A DNA stretch of 25,034 nt from positions 1-25,034 of IMG/VR virus record IMGVR_UViG_3300027801_000152; one strand, given 5' to 3'. Origin of the DNA: a virus. The first letter of the stretch is position 1, and each line of letters opens with the position of its first letter. Under the pieces are notes generated by a model, which did not search any database, was not told the origin of the DNA, and was given only the letters and a program-made list of their open reading frames with translations. Below, piece after piece: positions 1-19,521 of this stretch. The position numbers and the translations under genes are program-made.

Positions 1-1265
1 AGAACATTCATTTTATTTAATTCTGCTGCTCCACCGATTTGTGATACAACATCTTTTGCAGCTCCTGCAATATCACCCTCAAGTGCAAGTTGTCTTGCTT
101 TATTGAAGTTTAATTGTTTACCAATCATCATCGAAGCTTCCATTTCTTTTTCTATGGAAGATTCGAAATCTAATAATGAATTAGCAATCTTTGCAGTAGA
201 ACCTAAACTCATACCGAGTTTTCGAGCTTGAACTGCTGCCATTGCAAGGTTTTTACCACCATCTTTTGCGAAATCTGCAAATACCTCTGTGTTGGATGCT
301 AAATCTGCTATTACATCTCCAGGTCTTAAATCATTTGCCTGAGCAAGTTCACCAGTCATTTTCTGAAAGTTTAATGATGCATCATATGATGAACCAGTCA
401 AACTCATAAATTCTTTTGATAGTTTTATACTATCCTCGACCGTTATACCTAACAATCTCTTTTGTTTACCCAACGAAATCATATTCTCTTTGGTTGCTAA
501 ACTAACATCACCAAACGCATCCCCATATAATTTTGTTGTTGATGCGACCTCAACACCTAATAATTTTAATGTAGCGAGTGCAGCAGGGTCTGCAAATGCT
601 TTAGTTATTTTGATTGTTTGAGAAGCGGATGTACCGATTGAATCTTGTAAATCAATACCAAATGTAACTGCTTTCTTTAATGCCATTGCCATTGCTACAA
701 CTCCTGCGAGTAATAACAAATATGGATTTGCCAATAGTGCTTTACCAAATAGTACTGCTTGAGCATACATACCTTTCATAGCTGATTCACTCAGATTAAG
801 TGTACCTAATAATTTCTCTGTAAGTTGATGTTGTGCTTGAACCTTTGAAACCATACCCTCTTGCCTACTAAAAATACCTTTAGTCATTTTAAGTTCATCA
901 CCAAGTAATTTTGCTTTTTTCAAAGCATCTTTTGTACCTATGGTTTGTAGCTTTCTAATTTGGTCTGCTGATTTTGCTATCTGCTTTTTATGTGCAGCAA
1001 TATCAAAGTTTAATGCGGATTCTTTATCTGTAATTGAGAGTAATTCTTCTTGAGTATCATATATACCTTGAGCAATCTTTAATTCTTTCTTTCTAGTCTC
1101 AAAACCTATTTTTAACTGATTTATTCTTTGTTTTTGGTGTTCGGATGCTTTGCCTTCTTGCTCAGAAATTGTCTTAGCATAAGATGCTATTATTTTCTTG
1201 AGTTTTTCTTGTTTTTCTGTTAAGTCGAGAATCGCTTCAGCATTCTCTATAGCCCGATTAGCCAT
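1..1265 (-). CDS. Tail tape measure protein, N-terminal part (cut by window edge)
   Basis: The reading frame opens at an ATG at 1265 and stays open to base 1, giving 421 complete codons of a longer protein. Residues 1-150 are rich in Lys, Glu and Gln and look coiled-coil. A strongly hydrophobic segment at about 175-196 follows. The rest is Ala/Leu/Lys-rich helical sequence with stretches such as LALEGDIAGAAKDVVSQIGG near the cut, typical of tape measure proteins of marine myoviruses. The tape measure sets tail length and fills the tube before DNA ejection. Its place directly after tube and tail-chaperone genes supports the call. A Shine-Dalgarno-like AGGGA precedes the start, and the gap to the previous gene is only 13 bases. 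Family assignment is by sequence character and gene order; the C-terminal part is not visible. Confidence 0.8.
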   Translation of the reverse strand, partial: MANRAIENAEAILDLTEKQEKLKKIIASYAKTISEQEGKASEHQKQRINQLKIGFETRKKELKIAQGIYDTQEELLSITDKESALNFDIAAHKKQIAKSADQIRKLQTIGTKDALKKAKLLGDELKMTKGIFSRQEGMVSKVQAQHQLTEKLLGTLNLSESAMKGMYAQAVLFGKALLANPYLLLLAGVVAMAMALKKAVTFGIDLQDSIGTSASQTIKITKAFADPAALATLKLLGVEVASTTKLYGDAFGDVSLATKENMISLGKQKRLLGITVEDSIKLSKEFMSLTGSSYDASLNFQKMTGELAQANDLRPGDVIADLASNTEVFADFAKDGGKNLAMAAVQARKLGMSLGSTAKIANSLLDFESSIEKEMEASMMIGKQLNFNKARQLALEGDIAGAAKDVVSQIGGAAELNKMNV

Positions 1266-1278
1266 TCCTATTCCCTAT

Positions 1279-1491
1279 TTAGAATCCTAGCTCTTTATCA
1301 TACTTTGTGTATTTTGCTGGATTCTTTTTAAAATCCGTTATGAAATCTGCAACATCTTTATTACCTTTATCGATAATTTTTTGAATTTTCTTATCACTAA
1401 GTCTTTGAATGTCTCGTTTCAAGCGAGCAAAGAAACCCTCTAACAATCCTGCTTCGTGTAATTTCTTTAATTGTGATTCTTTTATTCTCAT
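1279..1491 (-). CDS. Small basic protein between tail chaperone and tape measure
   Basis: A 70-residue Lys-rich, probably helical protein beginning MRIKESQLKKLHEAG. I chose the ATG at 1491 because AAGGA lies seven bases upstream; the frame is open further up to a TTG at 1518, but that has no good ribosome binding site and overlaps a conserved promoter-like motif. There are no Cys motifs or membrane segments. It sits between the frameshifted chaperone and the tape measure, so it is probably co-expressed with them and may act in tail assembly. I do not recognise a family. The LHE/A near residue 13 resembles a prohead-protease site, but the tail position argues against processing. Confidence 0.7.
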   Translation of the reverse strand: MRIKESQLKKLHEAGLLEGFFARLKRDIQRLSDKKIQKIIDKGNKDVADFITDFKKNPAKYTKYDKELGF

Positions 1492-1518
1492 TGATTTATC
1501 CTTGTGTGATATTACCAA

Positions 1519-1535: not shown

Positions 1536-1733
1536 CTATTTTTTTGGTGTAGATTGACGGCGAGATTTCATATCATCGTTTTCTTTTTTACGAGAGTCAA
1601 TCATCTTGTTCATGTAGTATGTTCTAAGATGGATGGGCATATGATACAACTCGGTGAAAGTGAATCCTTCTCCGTGAAATACCATTGAAAATATTTGGTC
1701 GTGAAGTGTCTGTTTATAGTTCGGACTCAGGCC
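1536..1733 (-). CDS. Frameshifted C-terminal extension of the gp26-like tail assembly chaperone
   Basis: In the +1 (equivalently -2) frame relative to the preceding gene, 65 codons run open from the end of a seven-T tract (sense strand) to a TAG at 1536. The product starts GLSPNYKQTLHDQIFSMVFH and continues with GFTFTELYHMPIHLRTYYM, a compact motif-rich sequence that looks like real protein, not an antisense shadow. The only internal ATG of note (1685) has no Shine-Dalgarno, so independent initiation is unlikely. A slip on TTT TTT T would join residue 251 of the upstream protein to this segment, giving a product of about 316 residues. Short and long forms of a tail assembly chaperone made by programmed frameshift just before the tape measure are a known feature of long-tailed phages. 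The slip itself is inferred. Confidence 0.7.
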   Translation of the reverse strand, partial: GLSPNYKQTLHDQIFSMVFHGEGFTFTELYHMPIHLRTYYMNKMIDSRKKENDDMKSRRQSTPKK

Positions 1734-2487
1734 AAAAAAATCGTATCCCTATAGGTATATTTACCTTATGGGATTCTCCTATTTGACTTGTATATTCTGC
1801 TTCAAATTTAATATCTGGTTGGATGTCTACTAAATGTGCACGAAATTCTCGGGTATCTCTAGCAAGAAACTGATTATCTACAAAGTCATTAATCTTTGTT
1901 CTATCGGTTTCACCATCTACTGAAATAAGTTGTTTCTTCAATCGTGTAGTTAACTCATTGGAAACTCCAGTTGCTTGAGTTATTTTCTTATAACCCTCAA
2001 CTTCGTTTTCAACTTCCCGTTCACTCTTATGTGTCATTAATTTAAATTCAATCACTCGTTTAGAATGTGGTAATGTAAATTTAAATTTATTTCCATTCTT
2101 AAATAAAGATTCATCAATCTTTTTAGTCTCTAATTTTGTTAAATCAAATGTATGTTCTACTTCAAGACCCGTATCGGGGTCATTTATATTTACTACATAA
2201 TCCTTACCATAACCCAAAACTCTTGTACCCAACATTAGTGCGTTTTTATCCCCCACTAACATATCATCCAATTTTACTTTGGGATTTGCTATTACGGATT
2301 CGAGTAATCTATCAATCACTAATCCCTTTTCAATTAAATTTGAAGAAGTTAGAATATCTTCTTCTCTTGCAGTCATATACTTGACTTCTATTGTTCCACT
2401 ACTTAATGGACTATCCTTTGGATAAAGTAAACCTTTTGAAGGCAGTGATAGTTCTTCAGTAGGAAATGTGTACTGATTATCAGCCAT
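1714..2487 (-). CDS. 26: gp26-like baseplate/tail assembly chaperone protein (0-frame form)
   Basis: A 257-residue protein. The N-terminal signature LPSKGLLYP, then IEVKYMTAREEDILTS and KGLVIDRLLESVI, matches the T4 gp26-like baseplate family (Pfam T4_baseplate) as I know it. T4 gp26 is classed as a baseplate hub assembly factor. Here the gene lies between tube and tape measure, exactly where tail assembly chaperones sit in other long-tailed phages, so that role is more likely. The start is an ATG with AGGAG upstream. The last residues read FFWPESEL, and the two Phe codons fall in a seven-T run where a frameshift would give the longer form. About 75 bases separate it from the membrane protein gene upstream. 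Confidence 0.8.
   Translation of the reverse strand: MADNQYTFPTEELSLPSKGLLYPKDSPLSSGTIEVKYMTAREEDILTSSNLIEKGLVIDRLLESVIANPKVKLDDMLVGDKNALMLGTRVLGYGKDYVVNINDPDTGLEVEHTFDLTKLETKKIDESLFKNGNKFKFTLPHSKRVIEFKLMTHKSEREVENEVEGYKKITQATGVSNELTTRLKKQLISVDGETDRTKINDFVDNQFLARDTREFRAHLVDIQPDIKFEAEYTSQIGESHKVNIPIGIRFFWPESEL
1734..1740 (-). promoter_or_regulatory. Putative slippery site for programmed frameshifting
   Basis: Seven consecutive T residues in the sense strand, read CGA TTT TTT TGG in frame, six codons before the stop. A tRNA-Phe can re-pair perfectly after moving +1 on TTT TTT T; a -2 slip gives the same new frame. The new frame is open for 65 codons, while the -1 frame stops after about three. 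Confidence 0.6.
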
Positions 2488-2560: not shown

Positions 2561-2785
2561 TTATTTTTTTCCTAATACTTTTTCAGCTCCTGCGATTCCA
2601 AATGAACCTAAAGTGGTGAATAGGAATGAATTGTAAACAACATCGTTGATTACTAAATCTTTACCCATAATACCAGTTACAACATCTGCACCTGCAAATA
2701 ATACCATTACAGCAAACGCACCAAACCCTATGATTGATTTCTCGTTATATGAGTTATCATCTTTAAAAATGTCTTTAAAAGCCAT
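2561..2785 (-). CDS. Small membrane protein between tube and tail chaperone
   Basis: A 74-residue protein. After a charged N-terminus (about 1-16) comes a hydrophobic segment, FGAFAVMVLFAGADVVTGIM (about 21-40), then a short polar turn and a second apolar stretch, YNSFLFTTLGSFGIAGA (about 51-67), ending in KVLGKK. Two membrane helices with charged ends recall small holins or other phage inner-membrane proteins, but nothing identifies a lysis role and no lysis genes are nearby. The start is an ATG with AAGGA eight bases upstream, 18 bases after the tube gene, so it is probably co-transcribed with it. Confidence 0.7.
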   Translation of the reverse strand: MAFKDIFKDDNSYNEKSIIGFGAFAVMVLFAGADVVTGIMGKDLVINDVVYNSFLFTTLGSFGIAGAEKVLGKK

Positions 2786-2803: not shown

Positions 2804-3295
2804 TTAGAACGAGAGTACTGCGTAATCGTAACGTAGTGTTAACGATATATCAGCAACATCTGTTCCATTAGCAAAATCTAAATCATTGAAGTTTGCAGTT
2901 TGAATGAAAGCACCATGTAGTACCCATTCTTCAACCTTATCACCGACTGGTCCTAAAAGATTGAAACGAACTTCTTTTTTATAAAAGTCTGCATATCCAT
3001 CGCGACCTGTTACTGATTCGTGATGTAATCTTACCCATTCCATTACTGCTTGTGCACCACTTGGAACGATTGGGTCATATAGAGTTATCTCTAATGGCTC
3101 CCACGTACCTTTACCCTTAACATATCGTTTTACATTGATATGGTTAAGTTCGATTTCTTCAAAAGTAATCTGTGGTCTATTAGCTGTCTTTACGAAATAA
3201 GATGGTATCCCATCAATATACATAATGAACCTATTCTTTGTTTTCGGTTCAAATGCTTTAAAAAAGATTTCATCTGTTGTTAGTATGTCGGCCAT
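2804..3295 (-). CDS. 19: Tail tube protein, gp19-like
   Basis: A 163-residue protein, the same size as T4 gp19 and matching the phage T4 gp19 tube family. It has NRFIMYIDGIPSYFVKTANR near the N-terminus, a basic central strand (HINVKRYVKGKGTWEPLEIT), and a C-terminal LTLRYDYAVL strand. Hexamers of this protein stack to form the inner tube that crosses the host envelope on sheath contraction. The start is an ATG with GGAGA six bases upstream. In T4 the tube gene follows the sheath gene directly; here a plus-strand cassette and a terminator lie between them, and a candidate promoter motif sits about 40 bases before this start. Confidence 0.9.
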   Translation of the reverse strand: MADILTTDEIFFKAFEPKTKNRFIMYIDGIPSYFVKTANRPQITFEEIELNHINVKRYVKGKGTWEPLEITLYDPIVPSGAQAVMEWVRLHHESVTGRDGYADFYKKEVRFNLLGPVGDKVEEWVLHGAFIQTANFNDLDFANGTDVADISLTLRYDYAVLSF

Positions 3296-3335
3296 TGCCT
3301 ATCTCCGTTTAAATTAATGCTGTTTTTTTCTTCGA

Positions 3336-3347
3336 TAATAAATATCA
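3336..3347 (-). promoter_or_regulatory. Conserved intergenic 12-mer, candidate late promoter (copy 2)
   Basis: Exact TAATAAATATCA on the plus strand, 40 bases upstream of the tube ATG. Because a bidirectional terminator separates the tube from the sheath, the tube gene needs its own promoter; this motif is the best candidate seen. Confidence 0.5.
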
Positions 3348-3383
3348 GGTTCTTAAAAAATGTGTAATTTCTTACATCATTCT

Positions 3384-3410
3384 TTGAAGTTTTATTGAAG
3401 TTTTTTGAAA
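3384..3410 (+). repeat. Helically phased TTGAA repeats upstream of promoter
   Basis: TTGAAGTTTT occurs twice with an 11-base period (3384 and 3395), followed by TTGAAA at 3405, just before the -35 box at 3418. The spacing of about one helical turn puts the repeats on one DNA face, as for an activator or operator site or an UP-like element. Binding is inferred. Confidence 0.35.
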
Positions 3411-3417
3411 ATAATCC

Positions 3418-3447
3418 TTGACTTGTATAGTATTTATGTTGTATATT
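3418..3447 (+). promoter_or_regulatory. Sigma70-type promoter P1 of plus-strand cassette
   Basis: TTGACT (3418-3423), an 18-base spacer and TATATT (3442-3447), followed by AAGGTA. It is on the opposite strand to all surrounding tail genes and points at the 29-codon ORF at 3474. It nearly matches P2 in both boxes, in spacing and in flanking bases. Confidence 0.65.
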
Positions 3448-3473
3448 AAGGTATAAGAAATGGAAGATAAATA

Positions 3474-3563
3474 ATGAGTTGTAATAAATGTAAAAAAATA
3501 AAAGCAGTAGTAGTGTATAAGGGTAATAAATATTGTAATTGGTATTGTGCGAAAAAAAAATAA
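3474..3563 (+). CDS. 29-residue putative zinc-binding microprotein
   Basis: The reading frame ATG to TAA encodes 29 residues: MSCNKCKKIKAVVVYKGNKY then CNWYCAKKK. Two Cys pairs, C-x2-C (3 and 6) and C-x3-C (21 and 25), spaced 14 residues apart, form a minimal zinc-knuckle or zinc-ribbon pattern. The rest is strongly basic, which would suit nucleic-acid binding. A weak GGAAG lies about eight bases before the ATG, and promoter P1 is just upstream. At this length an ORF can arise by chance, but the four ordered Cys and the promoter make a real gene plausible. No family is recognised. Confidence 0.5.
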   Translation: MSCNKCKKIKAVVVYKGNKYCNWYCAKKK

Positions 3564-3571
3564 AAAAACAC

Positions 3572-3601
3572 TTGACTTATATGGCGAAATGGCCTTATAT
3601 T
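3572..3601 (+). promoter_or_regulatory. Sigma70-type promoter P2 of plus-strand cassette
   Basis: TTGACT (3572-3577), an 18-base spacer and TATATT (3596-3601), followed by AAGGTA. It shares CTTGACTTrTAT and TATATTAAGGTA with P1, so the two are probably duplicates. It lies 26 bases before the ATG at 3628. Confidence 0.7.
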
Positions 3602-3627
3602 AAGGTAACAAATAAAGGAAATAAAAT

Positions 3628-3876
3628 ATGATTAAGATAAAACAACAAATTAGGGGATTAAATTCACTGTCAGAACTGAATGAATTATCTTCCTATATTA
3701 ATGATTGTAAGACTATGTTGGGAAAATCATCGTTATGTGTTGGAGCTAAGGTTTATGTTGTTCAAAAGACAAAGAAAACTCCTGGTGTCATCACTAAGAT
3801 GAATATTAAAAAGGCTATTGTTGATATGAATGGTAGGTTGTATAATGTTCCTTTTGCTATGTTAGAACTAATGTAA
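3628..3876 (+). CDS. Small phage protein of the plus-strand cassette, unknown function
   Basis: An 82-residue protein, the only solid plus-strand gene in the window. The start is an ATG with AAAGGAA seven bases upstream and promoter P2 close by. The N-terminal third is helical (LNSLSELNELSSYINDCKTM). The C-terminal half, GAKVYVVQKTKKTPGVITKM followed by KKAIVDMNGRLYNVPF, reads as a small beta-barrel of KOW/Tudor-like character, with a basic face that might contact RNA or protein. This fold guess rests only on strand pattern. With its own promoters and terminator in the reverse orientation, it looks like moron cargo: an accessory gene expressed apart from the late structural operon. Confidence 0.75.
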   Translation: MIKIKQQIRGLNSLSELNELSSYINDCKTMLGKSSLCVGAKVYVVQKTKKTPGVITKMNIKKAIVDMNGRLYNVPFAMLELM

Positions 3877-3886
3877 TTATATTAGA

Positions 3887-3987
3887 TTCGTGGGTTGCCG
3901 ATATACTACGATAATTTGGAATCGGTTTGGGTTATGTAGTGTTTCACGAAATTAGAAACAACCCTTGTGAGTTAGGTGGTTAAACTC
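3887..3987 (+). ncRNA. Candidate structured RNA or 3' UTR after the cassette gene
   Basis: No convincing ORF is seen here, but complementary segments are dense. TTCGTG (3887-3892) pairs with CACGAA (3945-3950). CCGAT (3898-3902) pairs with ATCGG (3921-3925). The loop of that hairpin, ATACTAC (3903-3909), pairs with GTAGTGT (3936-3942), which would make a pseudoknot. GGGTTG (3892-3897) can alternatively pair with CAACCC (3959-3964). GAGTT/AACTC (3969-3973, 3983-3987) is a further hairpin. It lies between the ORF stop and the terminator on the same transcript. It could be a stable small RNA or a protective 3' end. No known RNA family was recognised. Confidence 0.35.
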
Positions 3988-4014
3988 TCAAAATTTATTC
4001 ATTGTGACCTCCTA

Positions 4015-4053
4015 AAAAGAAAAACCCACAGTCATTTAAGATTGTGGGTTTTT
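4015..4053. terminator. Bidirectional intrinsic terminator
   Basis: AAAACCCACAGTC (4021-4033) pairs with GATTGTGGGTTTT (4040-4052), a 13-base-pair stem with one G-U pair around the loop ATTTAA. T residues follow on the plus side and A residues precede it, so it can end both the plus-strand cassette transcript and the minus-strand transcript leaving the sheath gene (stop at 4080). Confidence 0.85.
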
Positions 4054-4079
4054 CGTATAAGCTATTTTATAAGTTAAAC

Positions 4080-6419
4080 TTATTCAGGAAATGCTGCACC
4101 TGTTGGTTGAATTACAAAGTCAAGTACAATGAACTCAGCAGTTCGTGTAGGTTGGATAAATATCTGTCCTACTAACTGGTTTCTATCAACAACATCTGGT
4201 GTGTTGTTAGAATCATCCATTACTACTTTAAATGCACTTAAACCACTATTTGATTGAACACTCGCTAAGAAAGGATTAACGATTCCTAAGAATCTATTTC
4301 TTGTTGCGGATGTGTTTTGTTCAAATACTAAGTATCTTGATGAAGAAGCAATGAACTTACGAAGTCTGATTAACAATCTTCGTACATTGATTCTATCAAG
4401 TGCACTTGGTTTACCTTGTAGTGTTTTCTGTCCGAAAACTACAACACCTTGACCTGGGAATGAAGCGATTGGATTCAAACGACCTTCATACAAATCATCT
4501 CGTTCTGTATGTGTTAGTCGTGTTTTTGCTTCCAATACTGAACTCAATCCACCTCTGTTTAAACCAGCAGGAGCAAACCATTCGTGTGCTACACTATCTG
4601 TGAAACTAATCACACCAGGTATCACTACGGAAGGCGGAACCCACATTGGTTTATTCTTTACTGAATCAAGTATCTTGACCCAAGGATAATATACACCAGC
4701 ATAATTCGTATCCAATGTTTTAATATCATTGATTGAATTAGCTACACTTCTACCCCATCTTGAACCATCCATTACATAAAAAGCATCTGCACGAGCTTCT
4801 ACTTTTGATATAGCGTGGTTTGAAACGGAATTGTGATATTCGTGTATAATACCAGGTGTTACAAGTAAGTTAATATCAAACTCATCTGGGTTTGATACAG
4901 CATTAATTGCTCGTTTGTACGCGATTGAACCACTAGCAGTAGTACCACTACAATCTAAACCTTGTTGGTTTGTTGCAGAAATATCATTACCAGTTGCTTT
5001 CAATACAGTCGGGTCATCTCCATCAAATCCATGCTGAAAAGGAATTATAAATTTTCTTTGAGCTTTCGCTGAAAGAGCTAATGTAATTGCCTCTGCTGCT
5101 ACTGATTCTTGGGTATCCCCTATTGTAGTTGCATCCGCGTGTCCTAACATATTCTCTAAACTGAATACTGCATTATTACCAGTACCAGCACTTGCAGGTA
5201 TTGGTGATGTGAATGCTTTATTGTCAGTATTTGAGAAATCCCAACCATAGTACACATTTTGGTCAAATACACCGAGTGTGTTAGTTTGTTGTGAAACAAA
5301 ACTTGCACTTGGGATTTGTGTAGTACCGAGAACTGGGTTAGATGCTGCTGCAAATCCATGTGGTAATAAATCTGATGCTATTCCCTCAAGATTTGAAGAG
5401 TAATCACTTAGATATACATGAACTGATTGATTTGGCCAATCACCATTGTAGGTAAGTTTGCCTTCTGTATCAATTGTTACATATCTATCACCAATTGCTC
5501 TTGGTACAAAGTTTACTGAATCAGGGTCAAAGCTAAGGTTGGTGAACTCTTCAAGAACTTCACCATCATTGTTTTCGCCTGGATTGTTTCTTAATACACG
5601 GAGTGCAAAAGAACCATAATCAGAACCTGGTACATTAGCTGCTGTTGTCAAATCTGCTACTGCAATCTTGAAATCATCATTTACATTCGTACCATGCGAA
5701 CGAGTATTAACTTTAAATAAATTTTTTCTAGCTCCACCACTTAATTGTGATACAATATAAGGTGTTGTTGCTACTTTGTAATCGTGTGTAAAATCATCAC
5801 CAGTTGCAGTTGAAGCTGAGACTAAACTCATACTTACATTAGCATCAAATCCATTACTTGAATGGAATTTTTTAAATGATTTATACACATATACATTTGT
5901 GTTAGTTGTTTGTGGGTCTGTTCCGAATACTTTTTCGATGTAATCATCCGAACCTGTATCAAAACTTATTGTTTTTGCAGATACACTACCTATTGTGATA
6001 GAGCCTCCAGCAAAATCAGCTCCCGCTGCTAAAGATGCACTCGCTGCACCACCTAAATCCAACGTATTACTTAGTCTTGATGGTTTTAAAACTGCTGCAG
6101 TATATGTTCCGAGTGAACTTGATAAGTTAACTCTAACTGCAGAATGTTTATATCCACCGATTCCTAATACACGAACTATGGTGACGGTCGGAGCATTCTT
6201 TATATATTCTTGGACGGTATATGGTACATAAAATCGAGTATCTAAACCACCAAAGATATTTTCAAATTCCGAAAAACTTGTTACTTGTGTTGGTACAAAC
6301 GCCGGACCTTTAACTGTCGGTCCAATGATTGCAGCTCCAATATCAGCAATACCTTGTGGTAGGAAAGATAAATCTTTTTCTCTTGTAAATACACCTGGTG
6401 AGACTATTCTCTCGGCCAT
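4080..6419 (-). CDS. 18: Tail sheath protein, gp18-like
   Basis: A 779-residue protein, longer than T4 gp18 (about 660). The N-terminus, RIVSPGVFTREKDLS, is the usual sheath opening that threads into neighbouring subunits. Residues about 20-85 carry GPTVKGPAFVPTQVTSFSEF and YVPYTVQEYIKN, also typical. The C-terminal third holds the conserved core, including SLRRGG-like GLNRGGLSSV, RRLLIRLRKFIASSS and the final TRTAEFIVLDFVIQPTGAAF. The middle (about 110-500) is a Ser/Thr/Asn-rich variable insert that probably forms outward domains and explains the extra length. The protein polymerises around the tube and contracts to drive infection. The start is an ATG with AGGAG upstream. The gene is followed by the bidirectional terminator. 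Confidence 0.93.
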   Translation of the reverse strand: MAERIVSPGVFTREKDLSFLPQGIADIGAAIIGPTVKGPAFVPTQVTSFSEFENIFGGLDTRFYVPYTVQEYIKNAPTVTIVRVLGIGGYKHSAVRVNLSSSLGTYTAAVLKPSRLSNTLDLGGAASASLAAGADFAGGSITIGSVSAKTISFDTGSDDYIEKVFGTDPQTTNTNVYVYKSFKKFHSSNGFDANVSMSLVSASTATGDDFTHDYKVATTPYIVSQLSGGARKNLFKVNTRSHGTNVNDDFKIAVADLTTAANVPGSDYGSFALRVLRNNPGENNDGEVLEEFTNLSFDPDSVNFVPRAIGDRYVTIDTEGKLTYNGDWPNQSVHVYLSDYSSNLEGIASDLLPHGFAAASNPVLGTTQIPSASFVSQQTNTLGVFDQNVYYGWDFSNTDNKAFTSPIPASAGTGNNAVFSLENMLGHADATTIGDTQESVAAEAITLALSAKAQRKFIIPFQHGFDGDDPTVLKATGNDISATNQQGLDCSGTTASGSIAYKRAINAVSNPDEFDINLLVTPGIIHEYHNSVSNHAISKVEARADAFYVMDGSRWGRSVANSINDIKTLDTNYAGVYYPWVKILDSVKNKPMWVPPSVVIPGVISFTDSVAHEWFAPAGLNRGGLSSVLEAKTRLTHTERDDLYEGRLNPIASFPGQGVVVFGQKTLQGKPSALDRINVRRLLIRLRKFIASSSRYLVFEQNTSATRNRFLGIVNPFLASVQSNSGLSAFKVVMDDSNNTPDVVDRNQLVGQIFIQPTRTAEFIVLDFVIQPTGAAFPE

Positions 6420-6907: not shown

Positions 6908-7360
6908 TTAAATTTTTTCTATAGAGCTATTTTTTTCTTCCAAGAGATTTTGGAGATGGTCGACCTTTTGGTTTAATTCCTTGATTCCCTCAACTAATAA
7001 TGGAATTATCTTATGATACTGAACACCCTTGTAACCAGTATCTCGGTCATTGACTGCAGATGGTAAAATGGCCTCAATTTCTTGAGCAATAACTCCAACA
7101 TCGTGACCTGAATAAATATCTTGTTTTTTATTCCAGTCAAATTCATAACCACCAATTTTCTGCAACTTCTCTAATGAGTTACCTATATATGTTATATTAT
7201 CTTTTAAATTTTTGTCGGATGAATTGTAAGCAATGATATCACCACTAGCTCGTATGGTTGAACCACTTATATCAGATTCAGTCCATATAACTCCAGATGC
7301 AGTTACTTCATTTAGGTGGGCACTTGAACCCGATACTACTACTTTTTTCCAATTTGGCAT
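6908..7360 (-). CDS. Short tail fibre protein with S74 intramolecular chaperone domain
   Basis: A 150-residue protein. The N-terminus, WKKVVVSGSSAHLNEVTASG, matches the start of the large fibre protein encoded at 7749-9590 and probably anchors both to the same site. Residues 47-56, SSDKNLKDNI, are the peptidase S74 autocleavage motif, with Ser48 and Lys53 spaced as in the known Ser-Lys dyad. GVIAQEIEAILP (89-100) and YHKIIPLLVEGIKEL (115-129) complete the domain, followed by a C-terminal coiled coil. In this family the domain trimerises, helps the fibre fold and then cleaves itself off. With only about 45 residues before the cut, the mature fibre piece would be very short. The start is an ATG with AAGGAG upstream. 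Confidence 0.88.
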   Translation of the reverse strand: MPNWKKVVVSGSSAHLNEVTASGVIWTESDISGSTIRASGDIIAYNSSDKNLKDNITYIGNSLEKLQKIGGYEFDWNKKQDIYSGHDVGVIAQEIEAILPSAVNDRDTGYKGVQYHKIIPLLVEGIKELNQKVDHLQNLLEEKNSSIEKI

Positions 7361-17845: not shown

Positions 17846-19501
17846 TTAAACTAAGTTTATGTCTGCGACCGTGACTGTTCCGTAATACTCTGGACGAACC
17901 ATTTTCTTAGCGTAACGTGTCATTACCCCTTTACGTGGTGTAAAGTTCTTAGGGTCATAGACAAGTGGTGTCATAATTAATGGAACATACGGAGCATAAA
18001 CCGCACCGGTTTCAAGGAAATTACTTCCTCGGAAACCACATAGGATTTTGTTCTCGAGCATGTAAGGGTTCTTATAGACAGTATATCTGTTATTAAGAGC
18101 TCCTACTTTTTGTACGCCCATTGCGAAAGATGAATTAGTAGCATCACCATTCGTATCAGCAGCATATCCAGGAATTGACTCTATAATTGTAGCAGTTTCA
18201 GGTGATACCACGATGAAATTTGCTCCGCCTCTTAGAGTTTTTTGATGAATTGCGTTTGATACTGATTGGATTTTGTTACCCAATGTCTGGAACCAAGTTC
18301 CTTTCGTGTAAGCAGATGCGTTAGCAGCTGTTTCTTCGAAAAGTGCGGTTGCAGAATTGTATTCATTACCAACTTTTGCTGACCATTTTTCATTCTTAGC
18401 AGAAGCATTAGCAAACAACATATCAAGAATTTCCAAATCAATTTCCATTGAAATATATTCACTTAATAGTGCTGTTAATTCAGCTTCAGCATCAACTGAA
18501 TGATAAGCATTTAAGTCTTGAGCAAGTTCTGGAGTCCAGACAGCTTTTAACTTACGAGTTTTCGCGATAATCGGAATACTCTTTAATGCAATATCTAATT
18601 CAGGAATGTCGATATCAGTTTCAGGATTTAAATCTGTTCCTGCTGCTGTAGCTTCGAAGTCAGTTCTATCATAATTCTGACCTTTAACTTTATGGAAAGA
18701 AACGACAACATTGCTTATAGCAGTTGCTACGTCTTTTCTTACGATAAAAGTTATTCCGGATGTAGATGAATCATAAGTAGTGTAAGCTGGGAATATTTCA
18801 TCGAAGCCTGAACCACTAATTGTGAATGCACGAACACCATCTGAGTCGAAATCACTTAATCCACCAGTGTGGACTGTTACTTTTGCCAAACCATCATCAG
18901 CTAAATAGCCGGCTGATATGGATGAAGATAAGTCTGGTTCAAAATCAACATCACCCCAGACAGCAGAACCAGTAGTAAAATTACCACTTGATAATGCTGC
19001 AGCTGCAGCTTGAACACCAGAATCGGTGTCGTTGATTGAATATCCAAATTTACCAGCGCCATATAAACCGCCAGTTGCGTCTACGTTTGAACCTGATGTG
19101 TTACCATGTACATCAGCATTATTTGTATGGTTATCTGTTTGTGCAGTACCATATTTAAAGTCAAGATAGAAAATCAGACCTGAAGGTAAATTCATTGGCT
19201 GAACACTAACAAATTCTTGAGCAGCAAGCTCCCCAAAAATTCTTCGAACTAAAGGAAGTGCAACACCTGACCACTCTTCTGAGTTTGCAGATGTACCAGT
19301 TCTTGAGGCTTCATCAATTAATTGACGAGCTTGATTCTCAAGCAGTACTGCCATTCCATTTACTTCATGTTCTTTGCCCATGCCTTCTAAAAGACCTGTT
19401 GGCTCCCATTTCTTGACCAATTTGCGAGTTTGTTCCAATAGTTGTCTTTGTGGATTATAACCATCCATCAAGCTTTCTATTGTACTTAGTTTTTTACTCA
19501 T
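17846..19501 (-). CDS. 23: Major capsid protein, gp23-like
   Basis: A 551-residue protein from the ATG at 19501, which has GGGAG eight bases upstream; a TTG at 19516 is in frame but includes that Shine-Dalgarno. T4 gp23 is about 521 residues. The N-terminus, then MAVLLENQARQLIDEASRTG and EEWSGVALPLVRRIFGELAA, matches gp23 relatives. LIDE/A at residues 61-65 fits the T4 prohead-protease rule (I/L-x-E, then cut) at nearly the same place as in T4, so the first 64 residues are probably removed. The C-terminal half has the usual core, including ETATIIESIPGY and MTPLVYDPKNFTPRKGVMTR. The middle holds a Gly/Ser-rich insert (about 120-290). It follows the scaffold gene by 20 bases and is followed by a strong terminator. 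Confidence 0.93.
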   Translation of the reverse strand: MSKKLSTIESLMDGYNPQRQLLEQTRKLVKKWEPTGLLEGMGKEHEVNGMAVLLENQARQLIDEASRTGTSANSEEWSGVALPLVRRIFGELAAQEFVSVQPMNLPSGLIFYLDFKYGTAQTDNHTNNADVHGNTSGSNVDATGGLYGAGKFGYSINDTDSGVQAAAAALSSGNFTTGSAVWGDVDFEPDLSSSISAGYLADDGLAKVTVHTGGLSDFDSDGVRAFTISGSGFDEIFPAYTTYDSSTSGITFIVRKDVATAISNVVVSFHKVKGQNYDRTDFEATAAGTDLNPETDIDIPELDIALKSIPIIAKTRKLKAVWTPELAQDLNAYHSVDAEAELTALLSEYISMEIDLEILDMLFANASAKNEKWSAKVGNEYNSATALFEETAANASAYTKGTWFQTLGNKIQSVSNAIHQKTLRGGANFIVVSPETATIIESIPGYAADTNGDATNSSFAMGVQKVGALNNRYTVYKNPYMLENKILCGFRGSNFLETGAVYAPYVPLIMTPLVYDPKNFTPRKGVMTRYAKKMVRPEYYGTVTVADINLV

Positions 19502-19521
19502 TATTGTGTCTCCCAATAGTA

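Follow-up and report, generated by a model that had tools for sequence, protein, structure and literature searches.

The window, a 25,034 nt stretch of viral DNA, carries on its minus strand a gp26-like gene that ends a few codons after a run of seven T residues, and beyond this run a second reading frame stays open. The question raised by this locus is whether the two frames encode one protein in a short and a long form, as in the tail assembly chaperones of the lambda G/GT type, or whether the second frame has another origin, and, if the frames are joined, by what kind of slippage.

The gp26-like gene and the open frame beyond it

The minus-strand gp26-like ORF finishes with ATA CGA TTT TTT TGG CCT GAG TCC GAA CTA TAA, with the T7 run at 1740-1734 and its stop six sense codons after the Phe pair. 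Starting at GGC (1733), the +1 frame runs through 65 open codons up to TAG (1538-1536), so that the slippery run and open frame described in the original prediction are verified in both coordinates and frame. The locus comprises the following features:

2804..3295, minus strand: tail tube protein (gp19-like), the upstream neighbour (phrog_4542, E 7e-29)
2561..2785, minus strand: small hydrophobic protein of 74 aa between the tube and chaperone genes (ORF only)
1714..2487, minus strand, stop included: gp26-type short form (TAC-N, G-like) of 257 aa (PF12322, phrog_150, AF2 model, HK97 match)
1731..1740, minus strand: putative +1 frameshift site TTT TTT TGG C, 0-frame F F W (UUU-pyrimidine joint in 59/59 relatives)
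1714..1733, minus strand: overlap coding in both frames, frame 0 giving W P E S E L stop and frame +1 giving G L S P N Y (sequence)
1536..1733, minus strand: predicted extension of the long form (T-like segment; 65 codons, +1 frame), closed by TAG at 1536-1538 (open frame, dN/dS, profiles, AF2 model)
1279..1518, minus strand: ORF of 79 aa that separates the extension from the presumed tape measure gene (ORF only)
1..1265, minus strand: presumed tape measure protein, continuing past the window edge (position; annotation in a relative)

The gene order is therefore tube, chaperone, extension and tape measure, with the tube identified by profile and the tape measure from its place in this order and from annotations in relatives (in Flavobacterium phage immuto the gene at the corresponding place is annotated as 'tail tape measure protein'). 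The location between tail tube and tape measure genes, typical of G/GT-type genes and pointed out in the original prediction, is thus borne out. Profile searches gave no significant family match for the presumed tape measure protein and none of note for the 79-aa ORF, and a tRNA and Rfam search of the window returned no match.

The major capsid protein of the window (17846-19516, minus strand) matches Gp23 (PF07068, 2e-77), and we therefore take the window to be a fragment of a T4-type myovirus. Near relatives found in genome bins often lie in bins of Flavobacteriales, from which the predicted host is likely a member of the Bacteroidota. Elsewhere in the window, a Peptidase_S74 intramolecular chaperone domain (3e-15) occupies a stand-alone ORF (6908-7360, minus strand) downstream of several consecutive fibre-like proteins that carry repeated motifs, and a loose region between sheath and tube (3300-4080) contains one plus-strand ORF of 82 aa (3628-3876) and a terminator-like inverted repeat near 4020-4055 (AAACCCACAGTC...GATTGTGGGTTTTT).

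The short form belongs to the PF12322 family T4_baseplate (E 7e-9, 36.1 bits against a curated cut-off of 24.5) and matches phrog_150 (E 4e-11). Sequence searches for a solved structure found none for either the short form or the extension, and the two parts were modelled apart, from the window and IMG/VR sequences only. The AF2 model of the short form (pLDDT 91) has its best match in the HK97 tail assembly chaperone gp13 (2ob9; Z 5.1, rmsd 4.3, 81 aligned, residues 1-93), which is the only match with Z>=5 among 453 solved chains, is of middling strength and covers the N-terminal domain only; it is also the match expected if the gene encodes a chaperone. The extension model consists of three helices (pLDDT 86), and comparison with the PDB gave no specific fold, only helical matches at Z 5.

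The median dN/dS of the extension, calculated for the part beyond the gp26 stop, is 0.165 (72 pairs, all <1), compared to 1.5 and 2.0 when the same DNA is read in the other two frames. These values indicate that the extension is a coding segment, read in the +1 frame and under purifying selection. Gene callers miss it, truncate it or start it elsewhere in immuto, SP-15, Mel-JY01 and the cyanophages, in agreement with the suggestion that ordinary gene calling would overlook this segment.

Conservation of the joint among relatives

Relatives were drawn from IMG/VR, isolate phages and genome bins and confirmed by tblastn, with one IMG/VR search contributing the best 80 of at least 599 relatives. 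At each locus the gp26-like ORF was followed to its stop by a mechanical procedure before the two remaining frames were opened; removal of sequences >90% identical left 59 +1-class representatives among the relatives listed. All 59 of these non-redundant representatives have TTT followed by T or C at the joint, and in all of them the frame relation is +1. The joint reads TTT TTT TGG CC in 31, TTT CTT TGG in 18, TTC TTT TGG in three and TTT CTA TGG in two, the single cases being TTT CTA TTC (LR756508), TTT TTT CAC (SP-15), TTC TTT CGT (GXN1), TTT TTT AGT (LIS04) and TTT CTT TAC (one locus). TTT thus occupies the slip codon in 59/59 compared to 76% TTT among the remaining Phe codons of these genes, a statistic weakened by shared ancestry, as the sequences form approximately 17 clades at 68% identity. 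A Trp codon, UGG, lies within two codons after the slip codon in 54/59. SP-15 has no gp26 relatives in IMG/VR besides itself.

There are 11 A/T runs of seven or more in the 25 kb window, so the T7 run alone is unremarkable, and the signal beyond chance resides in the conserved joint rather than in the run itself. About 20 of the 59 representatives read TTT CTT or TTT CTA, without a long homopolymer. The slippery site proposed originally is therefore real, but the seven-T run is dispensable, and what is conserved is UUU with a pyrimidine (U or C) after it. Slippery codons, downstream frame and frame relation are kept down to approximately 25–35% protein identity, and it was this conservation that had been named beforehand as the check on the original prediction. 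A conserved slippery site near the end of the G-like part is thus followed by an open frame under selection, as in G/GT-type genes.

In a survey of bacterial and archaeal bins, nine contigs with a readable joint repeat the +1 relation at UUU-pyrimidine. One of them, at 35% identity (L239) and in the WOR-3 chromosome CP070664.1 (2.8 Mb), keeps both TTTTTTTGGCC (TTT TTT TGG C) and the +1 segment; a gp26-type chaperone with an intact +1 site inside a bacterial chromosome may belong to a prophage or a contractile injection system. In a locus from an Aquificaceae bin (L241), the gp26-like ORF from 2501 has TTT TTT CTG at the usual place, the 0-frame is open for tens of codons past the site, and the +1 frame holds a T-like segment with its own ATG.

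How the two frames may be joined

Homopolymers are classic sites of sequencing and assembly error, which might split one long gene into two frames. This explanation is ruled out, as the same joint occurs in >100 independently sequenced contigs, some of them without a homopolymer, and in isolate genomes. An improbable source of the fused product is slippage of RNA polymerase on the T7 run, which would delete one U or add two and so give a mixed mRNA: the run is present in the window and about half of the representatives, but the TTT CTT and TTT CTA representatives, together with the three that read TTC TTT TGG, contain no run longer than four and have the same joint. The original prediction left the direction of ribosomal slippage as +1 or -2, which lead into the same frame. 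A -2 slip, giving RFFFGLSP..., would be allowed by the seven T residues, on which the P-site tRNA could re-pair two bases back; we consider it still less probable than polymerase slippage, since such pairing is impossible in the TTT CTT TGG and TTT CTA TGG relatives, whereas a +1 move from UUU to UUC pairs perfectly. The mechanism common to all would therefore be a slip of Phe-tRNA one base forward, from UUU to UUU or UUC, as these relatives have neither a long homopolymer nor a possibility of -2 re-pairing.

The second segment could also be a small protein in its own right, made from an internal start or by re-initiation after the gp26 stop, and in a few relatives this is the case. L222 and L226 carry the downstream segment as an independent gene that starts at an ATG of its own and has an added N-terminal part, Cygsa01 has it as a separate gene with a TAATG overlap, and so perhaps does LR756511, where TAATG occurs alongside a T TTT TTC site; truncated or alternatively started versions are also what is annotated in the isolate genomes named above. 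Such relatives had been named at the outset as evidence that would speak against frameshifting. However, they are few, and L222 and L226 nest within the +1 clade of a gp26 tree built without the slip region, so that their separate genes look derived from a frameshifting arrangement. L222 has lost the slip codon (TTC TTG TAT), while L226 keeps CTT TGG C. A separate protein would not need the conservation of the slip codon, and the first ATG, GTG or TTG of the +1 frame in the window is codon 17, beyond the conserved residues. A candidate start between the frame opening and 10 codons past the joint is missing from 16/59 representatives, the window and 15 others having no start codon ahead of the conserved residues. 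Somewhere in the +1 frame, 17/59 relatives do have a start codon accompanied by a Shine-Dalgarno-like match, and these may have extra internal starts. The original prediction relied instead on the lack of a Shine-Dalgarno sequence for the second segment; none was found upstream of the codon-17 ATG of the window, but this is weak evidence, since a 4-nt match accompanies only 13/59 of the gp26 starts in the lineage, and the absence of start codons is the stronger argument against an own start. We therefore regard independent translation as an unlikely general explanation for the lineage.

We consider it very likely that the gp26-like gene encodes a tail assembly chaperone of the lambda G/GT type, with a minor long form made by programmed +1 ribosomal frameshifting. 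The conserved site and frame relation, the selection acting on the extension, the homology and the resemblance to the HK97 fold are observed, and together with the gene order they support the proposal that gp26-like proteins are chaperones with a long form; from them we infer the slippage itself, its rate, the slow-codon trigger and the action as a chaperone. Most ribosomes would terminate at 1714 and release the short gp26-type form. With Phe-tRNA(GAA) paired to UUU in the P site while the following 0-frame codon (UGG in the window; UGG, CUU or CUA in most relatives) is decoded slowly, some ribosomes would slip one base forward, where by the pairing rules the tRNA would be fully paired on UUU or UUC, and the conserved UGG after the slip codon may serve as the slow codon. 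In the window the P-site UUU would re-pair on UUU with GGC as the next codon, and +1 reading for 65 codons would give a long form of ~316 aa containing ...RFF-GLSPNY.... If the system works like lambda G/GT, a large number of short forms together with a few long ones would surround the tape measure protein and bring in tube subunits, and neither form would be present in the virion. No stimulatory RNA structure was found around the slip site (z -0.13 and -0.27), and no Shine-Dalgarno-like stimulator or purine stretch upstream of it is conserved among the representatives; the efficiency of the frameshift may therefore be low.

Relation to gp51 and to other tail assembly chaperones

A Phe-Phe (or Phe-Leu) pair likewise closes gp26 in cyanophage S-RIM8, Aeromonas 65.2, OLIVR6, phiM9 and, among IMG/VR sequences, 80 relatives of the cyanophage gene. 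The joint in these reads T TTT TTC (or TTG), a standard -1 heptamer, and a gp51-type segment follows in the -1 frame. Approximately 69 representatives are of this -1 type; the dN/dS of their extension is 0.13. The annotated cyanophage 'gp51' is a truncated 3' part of this extension, which agrees with the report that cyanophage gp51 has ~20% of the length of T4 gp51 (PMC3037559). In T4 itself, gp51 is a paralogue of gp26 (BLASTP 2e-6) with an extra C-terminal piece, encoded on the opposite strand from gp26, and T4 thus has its short and long forms as the products of two genes, with no shift, in agreement with the PRFect account of Vladimirov et al. 2022 (PMC10885494).

The +1 extensions match the cyanophage gp51-type (-1) segments by profile at 94%, or 82% without bridging members, and the -1 segments in turn match T4 gp51 (66%/28%; hmmsearch 6e-7 among two sequences) at residues 206-245. 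A direct profile match between the +1 extensions and T4 gp51 was not significant, and the match of the window extension to phrog_634 (gp51 'baseplate hub assembly catalyst') is marginal (E 0.05). In the viral library the extension otherwise has weak matches, among them short proteins from T4-like phages and the Moogle tape measure chaperone. By profile similarity to gp51 and cyanophage gp51, the extension thus resembles the gp51 C-terminal (T) segment, with the link running through the cyanophage segments.

In the gp26 tree the +1 and -1 loci separate almost cleanly (five changes for all labels compared to a shuffled mean of 18), although the deep branches are long and weakly supported, and the tree does not fix the direction of change between +1 and -1. 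It is probable, though less certain than the frameshift itself, that these genes form one orthologous family in which the same Phe-Phe codons became a -1 site in one branch and a +1 site in another, while other members acquired a separate start and T4 a duplication, so that the family would record both a change of direction and losses of shifting. With T4, the window locus shares the PF12322 G-part family and, by profile via the cyanophage segments, the C-terminal segment; T4 has two genes on opposite strands and no shift, whereas the window has one gene with a +1 shift. Cyanophages and other Kyanoviridae have, as here, a shift at the matching Phe-Phe codons and a related T-like segment next, but the shift is -1 on T TTT TTC rather than +1 on UUU-pyrimidine.

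To our knowledge, the review literature treats G/GT frameshifting as near-universal in long-tailed phages and almost always -1. Lambda G/GT, P2 E/E' and HK97 gp13 share with this locus the position between tube and tape measure and the short and long forms, and HK97 also the N-terminal resemblance; lambda differs in its -1 shift, and the window lineage in its +1 shift and larger gp26-type G part. Of published cases, G/GT frameshifting has been described as conserved 'except T4', and HSTV-2, an archaeal myovirus of a haloarchaeal host, is by its description likewise very likely +1 (PMC5009743). The prfB site, CUU UGA C, differs by one base from the CUU UGG C of many relatives, and in both the P-site tRNA would slip one base forward. 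However, prfB has a stop codon in the A site and a Shine-Dalgarno stimulator, whereas in the window lineage the A site holds a sense codon (UGG, CUU, CUA, CAC or CGU) and there is no conserved stimulator or purine stretch, and the site is thus not of the prfB type.

The chaperone role of gp26-like proteins, which the original prediction offered as a suggestion, is already prior work: as credited in the PRFect paper (PMC10885494), Vladimirov et al. 2022 identified T4 gp26/gp51 as the tail chaperones of T4-like phages, and polyT -1 signals in T4-like chaperone genes are credited to the same study (PMC12846349). Already known, then, are G/GT-type frameshifting, the T4 gp26/gp51 chaperones, -1 sites in T4-like phages and a probable +1 shift in HSTV-2. 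What appears to be new, with Vladimirov et al. 2022 known through citing papers, is a lineage-wide +1 UUU-pyrimidine site (often CUU UGG C) at the same Phe-Phe codons that serve as the -1 site in relatives.

With this, G/GT-type frameshifting would also cover a large T4-type lineage that shifts by +1, at a site that in some relatives is close to that of prfB and operates without a stop codon or stimulator. It accounts for a stretch that gene callers have missed or truncated in isolate genomes (immuto, SP-15 and the cyanophage 'gp51'), and provides a simple annotation rule, namely to look for UUU plus a pyrimidine where gp26 ends. It also makes a functional prediction, a ratio of short to long chaperone, that could be tested in cultured Flavobacterium phages.
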